Position numbers and translations under genes: made by a program. Below, piece by piece: positions 11,691 to 27,637 of a stretch of DNA of 64,000 nt. Origin of the DNA: Zhongshania aquimaris (GTDB taxonomy: Bacteria; Pseudomonadota; Gammaproteobacteria; Pseudomonadales; Spongiibacteraceae); assembly GCF_019312595.1 (NCBI RefSeq), contig NZ_JAHWDQ010000001.1, forward strand, positions 62,001-126,000, written 5' to 3'. Each line of letters starts with the position of its first letter. Positions within the stretch are counted from its first letter, which is position 1. The notes under the pieces were generated by a model that saw nothing but the letters and a program-made list of their open reading frames with translations, made no database searches and was not told where the DNA came from.

Positions 11691-12335
11691 CTACTGATGA
11701 ATACCAACCAAGGGCAGCAGCATAGCGAATTCATCTAACACCGACAGCGGTTCCCAGCGCAGCAGCCGCTCTATACTGTGAGCACCGTAAGAAACCCCCA
11801 CGCTCGGCATGGCAATTCGACTTGCCATCTCCAAATCGTACTCGGTATCACCTACCATAATCGCGTCACGGGGGCTTATTGCCAGCTCGGTGCACAATTG
11901 ATGAAGCATAAGCGGATCTGGTTTCGATGCAGTCTCATCTGCACAGCGACTCGCGCTAAACAATCCACTAATCTCCAAACCCGCAAACACCCGATCAAGC
12001 CCCCTGCGACTCTTGCCTGTGGCAACACACAAATCGTGCCCAGCAGCCTTTAGGTCGAATAAGGTTTCTTCAACACCTGGGAACAATTGGCATGGCTGCT
12101 TATCCGCCTCAATAAAGCACGCCACATAGCACCCACGCATTGCCTCCACACCAGCTTTGTCGAGTTCGGGATAGAGCATGGCGATAGCCAAGCTTAATTC
12201 AAGGCCAATAATATTGCGTATTTCGTCTGCCGAGCAGACCGGAACGCCGAAATCTCTAGCGCCCTGCTGCATGCAAAAAACGATCTTATCACTGGAGTCT
12301 AAAATCGTCCCATCCCAATCAAAAATTATAAGCAT
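11691..12335 (-). CDS. HAD-IA family phosphatase (Gph-like)
   Basis: 214-aa haloacid dehalogenase hydrolase. Motif I DWDGTILDSSD (Asp nucleophile at residues 5-7), motif II VATGKSRRGLD, motif III lysine in ETASKPDPLML, motif IV VGDTEYDLEMA, with an alpha-helical cap between. It resembles phosphoglycolate-phosphatase-like enzymes; the substrate cannot be read from sequence. It overlaps the rluC stop by one base (TAATG), so the two are cotranscribed. The same rluC-HAD pairing is common in gammaproteobacteria. Confidence 0.9.
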   Translation of the reverse strand: MLIIFDWDGTILDSSDKIVFCMQQGARDFGVPVCSADEIRNIIGLELSLAIAMLYPELDKAGVEAMRGCYVACFIEADKQPCQLFPGVEETLFDLKAAGHDLCVATGKSRRGLDRVFAGLEISGLFSASRCADETASKPDPLMLHQLCTELAISPRDAIMVGDTEYDLEMASRIAMPSVGVSYGAHSIERLLRWEPLSVLDEFAMLLPLVGIHQ

Positions 12336-13288
12336 TACAATTCACTACCAGCACTATCTAATATTTTTTCTAATTCACTAGGGAGTGGCGCTTTCACATC
12401 GACACGCCGCCCATCAAGCGTAAAAGAAAGGGAATGCGCATGAAGAAACAGGCGCTTCAAGCCGAGCTGCTTGAAATGCGCATTCGCTCCATCATCGCCG
12501 TATTTGTCGTCACCTAAAATTGGGTAACCCGCGTATTGGCAATGGACGCGAATTTGATGCGTCCTACCGGTGATTGGCTTCGCCTCAATTAAACTTGCAC
12601 CCGCCACCCTTTTTATCAGCGTGAATTCAGTGAGCGATTTCTTACCGTCTAGCTCGACGCGCACCATACGCTCACCGGAGTTAAGTACATTTTTTTGCAG
12701 CGGCGCGTTCACTTGCTGTTTACGCACCGGCCACTTACCCGCGACCAAGGCCAAATAACGCTTATCGACCCCTTTGCGAGCCTTTAACAGCTCGTGCAAC
12801 TGCTTTAACACACTGCGCTTCTTCGCAACCATCACACAGCCGGAGGTATCTCTGTCCAAGCGGTGCACCAACTCCAAGCTCCGCTGATCTGGATACATTT
12901 GCCGCAGAGCCTCAATCAGACCGAGGGATATGCCACTTCCGCCATGCACCGCGAGTCCAGAAGGTTTATTGATAATAATTAAGCCATCATCTTCGTATAA
13001 AATAGCCGACCGCAAACTCGAATCAAGCCCACCAGGGACGACAACCCCCTCCCTAACCGCAACCCGAACAGGCGGCACGCGCACCACATCGCCAAAGGCC
13101 AGCTTTTGATCCGGTTTTACTCTCGATTTATTCAGCCGCACTTCGCCACGGCGCAATAAGTTATAAATCCGTGACTTAGGGACGCCTTTTAATTCTCTCA
13201 TTAAGAAATTATCGATACGCTGACCCGCATAATCAGCGTCGACAGTCACCAAGCGCACAGTCGGATTGATGACAGATTCTGAACTCAC
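12335..13288 (-). CDS. rluC: 23S rRNA pseudouridine synthase RluC
   Basis: Isomerises uridines in 23S rRNA (955/2504/2580 in E. coli). 317 aa with an N-terminal S4 RNA-binding domain (about residues 20-75) and an RsuA/RluA catalytic domain; D145 in VHRLDRDTSG is the catalytic aspartate. ITGRTHQIRVHCQYAGYPILGDDKYG is split here as its two halves TGRTHQIRVH and YPILGDDKYG. GTG start. Divergent from rne, as in pseudomonads and enterics. Confidence 0.95.
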   Translation of the reverse strand: MSSESVINPTVRLVTVDADYAGQRIDNFLMRELKGVPKSRIYNLLRRGEVRLNKSRVKPDQKLAFGDVVRVPPVRVAVREGVVVPGGLDSSLRSAILYEDDGLIIINKPSGLAVHGGSGISLGLIEALRQMYPDQRSLELVHRLDRDTSGCVMVAKKRSVLKQLHELLKARKGVDKRYLALVAGKWPVRKQQVNAPLQKNVLNSGERMVRVELDGKKSLTEFTLIKRVAGASLIEAKPITGRTHQIRVHCQYAGYPILGDDKYGDDGANAHFKQLGLKRLFLHAHSLSFTLDGRRVDVKAPLPSELEKILDSAGSEL

Positions 13289-13306
13289 TTACACTCCCGT
13301 AACTCA

Positions 13307-13335
13307 TTGAGTTAGTTATTGAATACTGATATAGT
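13307..13335 (+). promoter_or_regulatory. Sigma70 promoter of rne
   Basis: TTGAGT (13307-13312) and TATAGT (13330-13335) are separated by exactly 17 bp, matching the -35 at 4 of 6 and the -10 at 5 of 6. The predicted start near 13342 leaves an untranslated leader of about 477 nt before the rne ATG. Confidence 0.75.
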
Positions 13336-13341
13336 CGCCCG

Positions 13342-13818
13342 GTAGTTACCGGGTCCGGTTCCCGCCACAGCATGGCTGTGACGTGAGGGAAGACCGCCGG
13401 CCATCTACTAAGGTAAAGACTGCGGTTTCACGCATAGCCTTATTTCCATCAGTGAATAGCAGTGTACCGGCGGCATTCTAACGTAGTGTCGGTACATTAA
13501 TTAATAGTACTGCCGATATTTGTTTACACCACGGCTGTGAAAGAACTCTGAGAAAGCGACGTAAAGAACGTTACCAATACTGGCGCAGTGTATACGCGCC
13601 CAACAGTAATAGATGAAAGACGCCCAGCGCGGGACTGTTAAATCACACCCCCAGCGAACTGGAATATAAGGGCCAGGTTGTAGGCCACACTGATGTACCC
13701 GTGCAGCGCAGCATTTACAGTGCCGCACCCACAAGGTAATGCAGCGTACATCAGAACGCTTGAAGATGCTCGATCGCACGAGTGGCGCGACAAATCCCGG
13801 CTTTTGGGATTTTAGCTC
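13342..13818 (+). promoter_or_regulatory. Long structured 5' leader of rne (candidate autoregulatory RNA)
   Basis: The 530-bp rluC-rne gap has no convincing gene. It carries nested inverted repeats: CCCGG/CCGGG around 13338-13353; GGTTCCC (13357-13363) facing GGGAAGACC (13387-13395), enclosing a CACAGC/GCTGTG hairpin (13366-13380); and a GTACCG...CGGTAC pair near 13463-13497. In E. coli RNase E represses its own mRNA through a structured leader, and a separate leader motif is known upstream of rne in Pseudomonas; equivalence here is inferred. A 92-codon minus-strand frame at 13501-13779 lacks coding features. Confidence 0.6.
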
Positions 13819-16626
13819 ATGAAAAGAATGCTTATTAATGCAACTCAGCCAGAAGAGTTGCGCGTTGCCCTCGTAGATGGCCAGCGCTTATTTGATCTGG
13901 ATATAGAAAACCGCACCCGCGTACAAAAGAAAGCCAACGTCTATAAAGGGACTATTACCCGTGTAGAACCAAGCCTAGAGGCCGCATTTGTTGATTTTGG
14001 TGCTGAGCGTCACGGTTTCCTCCCCCTCAAAGAAATTTCTAAAGAATACTTCTACCGCAACCCATCCGATGTCAGCGGCCGCGCCAAGATCAAAGATCTG
14101 GTAAAAGAAGGCACGCAGGTCATTGTTCAAGTGGAGAAGGAAGAGCGCGGCAATAAAGGTGCCGCACTAACCACCTTTATCAGCCTAGCTGGCCGGTATA
14201 TGGTGTTAATGCCTAACAATCCTCGCGCCGGCGGCATTTCTCGCCGTATTGAAGGTGACGAACGCAGCGAATTGCGCGACGCACTCAGCTCAATAAACAT
14301 ACCCGATTCCATGGGCGTTATCGTCCGTACAGCGGGCGTTGGCCGCAGCTCTGAAGAATTACAGTGGGATTTAGACTACCTTCTACACCTGTGGTCTGCG
14401 ATCAAGCAAGCCTCTGAAGAGCGCAAAGCGCCCATCCTGATTTTGCAAGAGAGCAACGTGATTATTCGCGCTATTCGCGACTATTTACGCGACGATATAG
14501 ACCAAGTTCTGATTGATGCCGAAGAGTCCTACAACGAAGCCATGCACTTTGTTGAGCAGGTCATGCCGCACTTCAAAAGCAAGATCAAACTTTATAAAGA
14601 CCAAGTCCCGCTATTTAATCGCTACCAAATAGAAAGCCAGATCGAATCCGCCTTCCAGCGCGAAGTACAGCTACCCTCTGGCGGCTCAATAGTCATTGAC
14701 CCGACCGAGGCCTTGGTTTCCATTGACATCAACTCCGCCCGCGCCACCAAAGGCGGCGATATCGAAGAAACCGCGCTGCAAACCAATTTGGAAGCAGCTG
14801 ATGAAATTGCGCGTCAGTTACGTTTGCGCGATATCGGCGGCCTCATCGTCGTCGACTTTATCGACATGCTAGCGGCTAAAAATCAGCGCGAAGTCGAAAA
14901 TCGCGTACGCGATGCCATGGAGCCAGACCGCGCACGTATTCAAATCGGCCGTATTTCGCGCTTCGGCTTGCTCGAAATGTCCCGTCAACGCCTTCGCCCT
15001 TCACTCGGTGAAACCAGCGCAAAGGTTTGTCCACGCTGCAGCGGCCAAGGCACTATTCGCGATACCAACTCATTGGCACTATCGATTCTTCGCCTAGTTG
15101 AAGAAGAGGCCAATAAAGAGAAAAGCGCCGAAATTCGCGTTATCGTACCCGTCAATGTTGCGTCATATTTATTAAACGAAAAGCGCACAGCGATATATGA
15201 TGTAGAGCAGCGCAGCGGTGTCCGCGTAGTCGTGATCCCAACCCCCGCACTAGATACACCGCATTTTGAAGTAATGCGTTTACGCGAAAGCGATATTGGC
15301 GACGAAAAAGAAATCAGCTACAAAATTGTTTCCGAAATGGAAGCTCAGGCAGAAGCGCTGGATGAAGTTACCTCAAGCGCGCCGATAGCAGCGGCCGTTG
15401 TTCGCACCTTAGCCCCCAAAGGCCCAGCACCTGTGGCAGCGGCAAGTAGCGAAAAAACGCAAGTAGAAAGCAAAAGCACAACAGAAAGCAGCGAAGGCTT
15501 CTTTAGCAAATTAGCCAAGTCACTGAGCGGATTATTTAAATCCGCAGAGCCTGAGCCAGAACCTGAGCCAACACCGGCGCCGCGGCCTCGCAGCAGCAAT
15601 AATAATCGCAGCAACAACCGCTCGGGTAACAGAAATAACAACCGTGGTGGCCGCAACCGCCGCAATCCAGATCAACGTGAGCGCACACCCCGCGACGACA
15701 ACCGAGTCACTGATAATCGCGGCAACAAGGCAGAAAGCAGCCCTGCGCCTGAAACAGTGACTGGCAGCGATGCAGCTAGCCCTGAGCAAAATCCGGCAAC
15801 TGAGAATGGCAATCGCCCTAAACGCCGCCCAGGGAACCGCAAGCCGCGCAACTCTCAGGAGCGTAAGCGTACGCCCGCGCCAGTATCAGAAGAAAATTCA
15901 GCGACAGATCAAGCTAGCGCCGACAGCCAGACAGTAATCAACGACACGCCCGCCACCGGCGAACAAGAAAACAAGAGGCCAAACCGCAACGCAAACCGCT
16001 CACGCGGCCAGGCAAATACCGACGCACGGGCTGAAGTTAGCGACGCTCCGGCAAGCTCAGCTACCGAGACAAGTAATGCAACACCGACGGCCGAAGATAC
16101 TAAGCCGGTAAAAAGCGTAAGCACAGATACTCTTGCGCAGACTGAAGCTAAAGCCAACGAAGTCGCAAAAGAGGACACACCCGCAACTCAGCCCCCAGCT
16201 GAGTCGCAAGCACCTTCCGAGCCACAAACGCCTTCAGAGCCACAGGCAGCGGAAGAATCAACTGCAAGCCCAATAGCTGAAAGTACAGCTACTGAGGAAT
16301 CAGCAGCGATTGCCGTTGTAAAAGAAGAAACAGTCGCTGAAGCAGCTCCCGCCGGAGAAAAAGCACCTGTCGCCGAAGAAGCAAAAGAACCTGCGCCCAA
16401 ACCTGCCCCTGCGAAAGCGGCTGAGCCCGTGAGTACCGCTACGGTAGAAAAAGTGAAACCGGTTGGACGCGCAGCCAATGATCCGCGTATCGCACCAAAA
16501 CCGGTTCAGAACTTACAGATTACCACTGCCAAGCCAACACCACCGGTACTTGATGGCGCCATTATGGCTCTGCCAGATCCAAGCCGTCCAAAATTACCAC
16601 GGGCGGTTAACGATCCACGCAACTGA
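13819..16626 (+). CDS. rne: Ribonuclease E
   Basis: Endonuclease and scaffold of the RNA degradosome, 935 aa. The catalytic half opens [10 protein letters not shown], then an S1 domain (about 35-125), the RNase H-like/5'-sensor region and DNase I-like acids in SIDINSA and VVDFIDM; the Zn-link CPRC sits at C404/C407. After about residue 520 the protein is low-complexity: a possible membrane-binding amphipathic stretch ([16 protein letters not shown]), an Arg/Asn-rich RNA-binding segment (about 595-640), Pro/Glu/Ala-rich linkers with SEPQ repeats, and two NDPR motifs at 887-890 and 931-934. No clear ribosome-binding site is visible. Confidence 0.98.
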
Positions 16627-27059: not shown

Positions 27060-27135
27060 TGGAGCGGGAAAGGAGGCTCGAACTCCCGACCTCAACCTTG
27101 GCAAGGTTGCGCTCTACCAACTGAGCTATTCCCGC
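27060..27135 (-). tRNA. tRNA-Gly (anticodon GCC)
   Basis: 76 nt including the encoded CCA. Acceptor GCGGGAA pairs with TTCCCGC; the anticodon loop is TTGCCAA; the T-loop GTTCGAG is intact. Nearly identical to E. coli glyV-type tRNA. Confidence 0.98.
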
Positions 27136-27226
27136 AAACTCCGGTTTTAATATTTACCTCAAGTAAATAAATAACCGTACAGCCTTGATAAGAAACACTT
27201 TTTTGCCCCTATTCAAAGACCGGCGC

Positions 27227-27255
27227 ATAGTAAAAAGTTTTCTTTAAGCTGTCAA
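27227..27255 (-). promoter_or_regulatory. Sigma70 promoter of tRNA-Gly
   Basis: On minus, consensus TTGACA (27250-27255), a 17-bp spacer and TACTAT (27227-27232). It lies between the proximal tRNA-Glu and tRNA-Gly, so glycine tRNA has its own start. Confidence 0.8.
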
Positions 27256-27310
27256 CAGCACCGTGGCAGGCATTTTGCTGACATTATTCTACGCGCTGTA
27301 ACGTAGAAAT

Positions 27311-27386
27311 TGGCGTCCCCTAGGGGACTCGAACCCCTGTTACTGCCGTGAAAGGGCAGTGTCCTAGGCCACTAGACGAAGGGGAC
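27311..27386 (-). tRNA. tRNA-Glu (anticodon TTC), copy 1
   Basis: 76 nt with encoded CCA. Acceptor GTCCCCT, anticodon loop CTTTCAC (TTC), intact T-loop. Identical over its whole length to copy 2. Its U34 is a target of MnmA thiolation fed by the Tus proteins encoded in this window. Confidence 0.98.
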
Positions 27387-27433
27387 GCCGCGAGCCTTTC
27401 AGAGCGATACTGCTGTCCCTGAAAGAGGGCGCA

Positions 27434-27462
27434 ATTTTAGAGTGACTCCCCCACCCCGTCAA
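27434..27462 (-). promoter_or_regulatory. Sigma70 promoter of tRNA-Glu copy 1
   Basis: On minus, TTGACG (27457-27462), 17-bp spacer, TAAAAT (27434-27439). Confidence 0.78.
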
Positions 27463-27495
27463 GGCCATTTTGGCACTAAATAGAGGAAAAACAAC

Positions 27496-27525
27496 AAAAA
27501 AAAAGAGAAGCATTTCTGCTTCTCT
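27496..27525 (-). terminator. Terminator of tRNA-Glu copy 2
   Basis: On minus, AGAGAAGC/GCTTCTCT stem with a 6-nt loop followed by nine T residues; it lies 37 bp after the copy-2 tRNA. Confidence 0.85.
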
Positions 27526-27561
27526 CTTAGCGTTGCCGGCGATGCCGACATCGCAGAATAA

Positions 27562-27637
27562 TGGCGTCCCCTAGGGGACTCGAACCCCTGTTACTGCCGT
27601 GAAAGGGCAGTGTCCTAGGCCACTAGACGAAGGGGAC
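27562..27637 (-). tRNA. tRNA-Glu (anticodon TTC), copy 2
   Basis: Same 76-nt sequence as copy 1. The 5' flanks of the two copies are also related (both share a GTCAAG-containing -35 region and a CTTTCAG/CTTCCAG stretch), pointing to a tandem duplication that included the promoter. Confidence 0.98.

Follow-up and report, generated by a model that had tools for sequence, protein, structure and literature searches.

In Zhongshania aquimaris, the gene encoding ribonuclease E (rne) is preceded by a long leader that is very probably a structured cis-regulatory element. Its main feature, which was absent from the initial annotation of this DNA, is a long-range helix predicted to compete with a hairpin at the translation start site, such that the downstream strand of the helix (block 2) pairs either with a strand in the middle of the leader (block 1) or with the start site. 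The helix itself is well supported by the comparison of related leaders. The reading of the whole as a genus-specific element serving feedback control of RNase E we place at about even, with control by RNase E itself being likely by analogy with known systems and a start-site switch driven by blocks 1 and 2 being put forward tentatively. RNase E plays a key part in RNA decay in Gram-negative bacteria, and it is mainly in E. coli that its feedback leader has been analysed in detail.

Table 1. Features of the rluC-rne region, in coordinates of the window.
Feature	Position	Strand	Basis or remark
rluC, divergent neighbour of rne	12335..13288	-	
Promoter: -35 TTGAGT, 17-nt spacer, extended -10 TGaTATAGT	13307..13335	+	Sequence, family recurrence
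rne 5' leader, ~477 nt	13342..13818	+	5' end inferred as 7 nt past -10
5' hairpin P1	13349..13400	+	Helices 1-3, 95-98% of cells paired, 3/18 pairs changed on both sides
Stem h-a, the second stem, formed by 13462-13471 with 13488-13497	13462..13497	+	96.5% of cells paired, both-side changes in 3/10 pairs
Block 1, 5' strand of long-range helix	13512..13558	+	
Enclosed variable domain, possible local hairpins 13579-13607 and 13690-13698 with 13746-13754	13559..13756	+	Read from sequence/alignment
Block 2, 3' strand of long-range helix; ribosome-binding site and start codon are alternative partners of its 3' part	13757..13801	+	
Anti-start strand CACGAGT, pairs with 13815-13821	13777..13783	+	
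Start-site hairpin AAATCCC/GGGATTT, weak Shine-Dalgarno-like GGGA in 3' arm	13792..13812	+	
GCTCATG including start codon, partner of 13777-13783	13815..13821	+	
rne, ribonuclease E, 935 aa	13819..16626	+	NCBIfam PRK10811 equivalog above cut-off

The features are listed in Table 1 by their position in the window, i.e., the whole stretch of 64,000 nt of DNA that was analysed. The genes rluC and rne stand back to back across a gap of 530 nt, the same arrangement as in E. coli. The initial annotation had placed a good promoter 484 bp ahead of the rne ATG, and this proposal held: a sigma-70-like site, with TG ahead of the -10 TATAGT, ends 484 nt before the ATG, and its pattern is present in 19 of the 20 family leaders, where the -35 starts at -499 to -578. 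In the twentieth (G004), ATTGAG is retained at about -650, with a poor -10. A consensus scan of 13200-13900 returned this site as the sole promoter-like one on the + strand, none lying closer to the gene, and thus does not point to a start close to the ATG, the counter-indication named by the initial annotation. Over both strands the scan gave 2 promoter-like sites against 0.7 expected and is therefore weak support if taken alone; the putative promoter is backed more by its recurrence in the family than by its consensus score. Overlying the rne -35 in the rluC-rne gap, a near-perfect palindrome, TAACTCATTGAGTTA (window 13300-13314), is matched nowhere else in the window when up to 2 mismatches are allowed, and its ATTGA core is retained in 20/20 family leaders; it may act as an operator or form a shared promoter element. 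Elsewhere in the window (27060-27637), three tRNA genes (Gly-GCC, Glu-TTC, and Glu-TTC) follow one another at an exact spacing of 251 bp, which suggests tandem duplication.

Leader-like DNA was found in 17 of the 18 genus genomes, including this one; G009 was missed and then located via rne. Because its contig ends inside the leader, one genus genome (G003) was left out of the leader counts, which are based on 17/18 genus and 20/21 family genomes. Among these, G004 (L040) is a divergent genus member with a leader of ~650 nt, which keeps block 1 and block 2 despite ~160 nt extra between the promoter and the core.

By its fold energy, the stretch 13335-13860 stands out only marginally (-163.7 kcal/mol; z -1.73; equalled by 5/100 shuffles). 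From the structure alignment of the 17 complete genus leaders, RNAalifold derived a consensus of 78 pairs, 16 of which have both partners replaced in one sequence or more. Toward the 5' end, hairpin P1 and stem h-a are together paired in 96.3% of cells, compared with 28-48% when slid, and 6 of their 28 pairs have changed on both sides; P1 has a gap in G004 and is mostly unpaired in G009. The complementary arms and nested stems described in the initial annotation are thus borne out by P1, h-a, and the long-range helix, all far above slid controls, and the covarying pairs whose absence from relatives it had named as evidence against the idea exist, as pairs changed on both sides. An all-pairs covariation test with a tree-based null gave no significant pair (top pair E=2.2), so that the support for structure comes from the named helices, which were drawn from the same alignment, and from further pairing tests. 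Within the 5' part, CCGCCGG and CCGGCGG (window 13393-13400 and 13467-13473) could also pair with each other at the expense of stem h-a, which may give the leader a second alternative fold.

The long-range helix extends over ~45 nt and bridges ~200 nt. Across the 17 genus leaders, its 32 pairs are formed in 95.4% of 544 cells, versus 27-41% when slid, and 5/32 have changed on both sides. Its covariation score and percentage paired were matched by 0/500 shuffles, which take no account of relatedness, and two of the five measures were unexceptional by the same yardstick (further pair types, 464/500; both-side changes, 23/500). One pair, added by hand to the RNAalifold helix, is unpaired in 7/17 leaders. 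Among ~97 windows per leader, block 1 is the top partner of block 2 in 18 of the 20 family leaders, the exceptions being this genome (G000), with 5 better windows, and G006, with 2. The duplex of the two blocks is better than all 200 shuffles in 14/20 family leaders; the remaining six, in which 1-13 of 200 shuffles are equal, are those of this genome and its five closest relatives. This genome is among the weakest (duplex -26.4 kcal/mol, 13/200 shuffles equal, 5/97 other windows better). When the region upstream was searched freely with a longer strand, the top partner fell at block 1 in 16/20 leaders (not in G000, G001, G005, and G006), and the duplex was indistinct from shuffles (z above -1) in 7/20.

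The three sister-genus leaders carry a helix at the equivalent place, built from different letters. A matrix built for 11 of the 20 leaders gave duplexes of -37 to -43 kcal/mol when both sister-genus blocks came from that genus and of -13 to -31 kcal/mol when blocks were combined across genera, a difference implying that both strands of the helix changed together. This contrast is the strongest evidence for co-evolving strands. Within the large genus, a leader's own two blocks do not as a rule pair better than blocks taken from different leaders.

The alternative partner of block 2 is the region of the ribosome-binding site and start codon (13806-13821). Over 13 distinct alignment rows, the start-site pairing is formed in 93.9% of 181 cells, compared with 21-45% when slid; 2 pairs have changed on both sides, a count that sliding by +1 and +3 matches or exceeds, and the clade to which this genome belongs has one C-A mismatch in the start-codon helix. 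Since both partners lie in block 2, formation of the start-site fold precludes that of the end of the long helix and vice versa, and block 1 and the start site compete for the same strand.

Calculated energies back a start-site switch only in part. Mean openness of positions -16..+3 is greater with block 1 than in a leader starting just past it in 20/20 cases, and exceeds that of the last 70 nt alone in 19/20; the gain is small in this genome (0.51 vs 0.42) and large in others (e.g., 0.48 vs 0.15 in G004). For the AUG alone, the presence of block 1 makes the codon more open in 9/20 leaders and less open in 11/20, the effect being reversed in the clade of this genome and the sister genus (in this genome, 0.57 with and 0.86 without block 1). 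When a choice was forced, the state with an open start was cheaper than that with an open block 1 in 18/20 leaders; the unconstrained best fold lies 0.8-10.2 kcal/mol below the former in all 20 leaders and 5.7-23.1 kcal/mol below the latter. Folding of 10 leaders from near block 1 yielded a long helix that displaces the start hairpin in 6, including this genome, and a hairpin retained beside part of the long helix in the other 4, as is also seen in the longer fold of this genome (13335-13860). These mixed results indicate that the computed balance between the states is close. Taken alone, the anti-Shine-Dalgarno (anti-SD) arm was tested against the upstream leader and had no exceptional partner there, reaching p<=0.05 in 3/20 family leaders (control, 1/20) and in 10/109 leaders outside the family (control, 5/109). 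As the latter figure is only slightly above control, a start-site switch is not claimed for other families.

Judged by its sequence, the leader is recognisable in its genus only, in line with the lineage-specific character proposed in the initial annotation. An nhmmer search of the other leaders, including those of the sister genus, with a genus profile returned no match with E below 1.2. The 17 genus leaders also served to build a covariance model of the core (108 positions), which therefore finds them by construction; it located one place per genus genome, missing the truncated leader of G003, and had no credible match outside the genus in the 293 order genomes and 21 family genomes scanned, one of the scans having used filters prone to losing weak matches. 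Two candidate matches were rejected, one (G275, E=0.008) lying within an unrelated open frame of 325 aa and the other (G019 C5, E=0.07) on a different contig from the rne of that genome.

Features of the leader were also sought in rne leaders at large, for which 103 of 140 rne-bearing genomes outside the family were analysed and 26 of 80 named-record loci were used (G072, with 8 nt upstream, was dropped), giving 130 leaders with that of E. coli and 129 without it. The region -50..+3 folds with a mean z of -1.83 in the 103 leaders, compared with a mean of -0.37 over 56 other window genes, and of -0.83 in the 26 named-record leaders, mostly from gammaproteobacteria; in this genome, rne ranks sixth of 57 window genes by fold energy. 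A Shine-Dalgarno-like motif lies wholly inside the 3' arm in 47/84 cases versus 3/38 in a control drawn from one genome with crude starts, and touches it in 75/84 versus 30/38 in the same control. Start-site hairpins are thus common in rne leaders of the order. A helix joining -460..-110 to -75..-15 beats shuffles (z<-2) in 27/130 leaders and, in a second run, in 23/129 (mean z -0.94), with two control positions in the same leaders giving 4/129 and 3/129 (mean z +0.19 and +0.22). The 12 clearest cases are spread over nine families; in family f47, the upstream strand again forms a strong duplex that takes in the anti-SD arm in 2/4 leaders (G143 and G116). The majority of leaders outside the family show no excess of such a helix.

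The E. coli leader of this kind, rne5, features an hp2-type RNase E-binding stem-loop. No family related to our leader was returned by an Rfam search, whether at the gathering score or at E<=10, and the same search found rne5 in E. coli (260 bits) and rne-II in Pseudomonas. Specifically, covariance matching to rne5 (RF00040) gave nothing in the leader at the gathering score or at E<=10, and rne-II (RF01756; gathering score 50 bits) gave nothing at E<=10 in 13200-13950 and nothing in the genome as a whole; the view that this leader is unrelated in sequence to that of E. coli therefore holds for both Rfam rne leaders. Of the 145 order genomes scanned, four, all from one family, have an rne-II match above the cut-off. 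Among five weaker matches in the order, four are on contigs without the rne of the respective genome, and only that of G100 (L140 / L180; family f2), at 15.4 bits and under the cut-off, is upstream of rne; this second family hints that rne-II-like leaders may extend beyond Pseudomonas.

In anatomy, the leader shares with rne5 of E. coli and its relatives a long leader upstream of rne, a divergent rluC and, by the Rfam structure line, a long-range helix whose 3' strand falls shortly before the start. It shares with rne-II of Pseudomonas the position upstream of rne and a terminal hairpin just before the start, whereas the rne-II structure line has no helix linking the middle of the leader to the start-site region. 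As expected of an autoregulatory rne leader, a long 5' UTR lies directly upstream of rne, its promoter being placed by sequence. Unlike the competition considered here, the mode described for rne5 is binding and cleavage of the leader by RNase E, with no mention of a start-site switch in the accessible parts of its descriptions. E. coli RNase E binds and cuts its own 361-nt leader, lowering its own synthesis (PMC6850036, PMC3997798). In other bacteria, truncation of RNase E in P. aeruginosa is reported to raise reads over the rne 5' UTR and coding region (PMC11964227), a band which vanishes upon phage infection of P. aeruginosa is attributed by the authors to cleavage at rne-II (PMC8545117), and in Synechocystis the enzyme is reported to cut its leader within a U-rich stretch (PMC10989929); the description of rne-II lists it for Pseudomonadales (PMC2864571). 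A full-text literature search, mostly of papers other than subscription ones (which include the two main E. coli papers), found no description of a start-site switch in any rne leader.

Against this background, the leader probably represents a variant, peculiar to this lineage, of the feedback by which RNase E is known to restrain its own production. In the mechanism that we propose tentatively, block 1, being made first, would capture block 2 in the intact leader, and the start site would stay open. RNase E in excess would bind or cut the leader within block 1 or close by; with block 2 then set free, the start site would be closed. Translation would then drop and the untranslated message decay, such that RNase E would limit its own supply. 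Closing of the start once block 1 is lost by cleavage is a possibility suggested by the anatomy. Short RNWUU-like matches are present in block 1, in the start-site loop, and at other places in this genome, the one examined for them.

A sensor of the E. coli type that works without a switch is a real possibility, if clearly short of an even one. The long-range helix would then merely scaffold an RNase E-binding hairpin, located in the enclosed or the 5' domain, the start hairpin would permanently limit translation, and control would consist of cleavage and decay. The E. coli leader likewise has a helix from its middle to just before the start in the rne5 structure line, and the mode described for it is cleavage and decay (PMC6850036, PMC3997798). 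Such a sensor also fits the AUG result in 11/20 leaders, the folds that retain the start hairpin, and the test of the anti-SD arm. It sits less well with the conservation of the part of the helix that covers the anti-SD arm itself, where 11 pairs are formed in 96.8% of cells and 3 have changed on both sides. A temperature- or ion-dependent gate, in which conditions would govern the melting of the start-site hairpin with no special part for RNase E, is improbable; it is in keeping with the start hairpins holding the ribosome-binding site in their 3' arm that are common in rne leaders of the order, but it leaves the conserved long-range helix unexplained. Scarcely credible is a hidden gene (an antisense ORF or a leader peptide) as the cause of conservation in place of RNA structure: the leader does contain an antisense ORF of 92 aa (window 13501-13779, - strand) at the place where yceQ is annotated opposite the E. 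coli rne leader, yet 3-11 frame-breaking indels in 9/9 relatives tested and substitutions lacking codon periodicity led us to reject this ORF as not conserved as coding.

Returning to the competition between block 1 and the start site, its extension to a switch common to the Pseudomonadales is doubtful. Three strands, far upstream, anti-start, and start site, would be kept in fast-diverging sequences, the cut by RNase E would remove the first, and the anti-start strand would then close the start. If true, cutting by RNase E would halt translation of its own message, beyond destroying it. A leader without detectable shared sequence but with a defined layout of competing strands would constitute a testable second design of rne leader, and the rne leader of this genus is a candidate for a new Rfam family. 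Such a design could account for the fact that rne leaders look unrelated between families, often with a hairpin at the start site and, in a minority, with a long-range helix.
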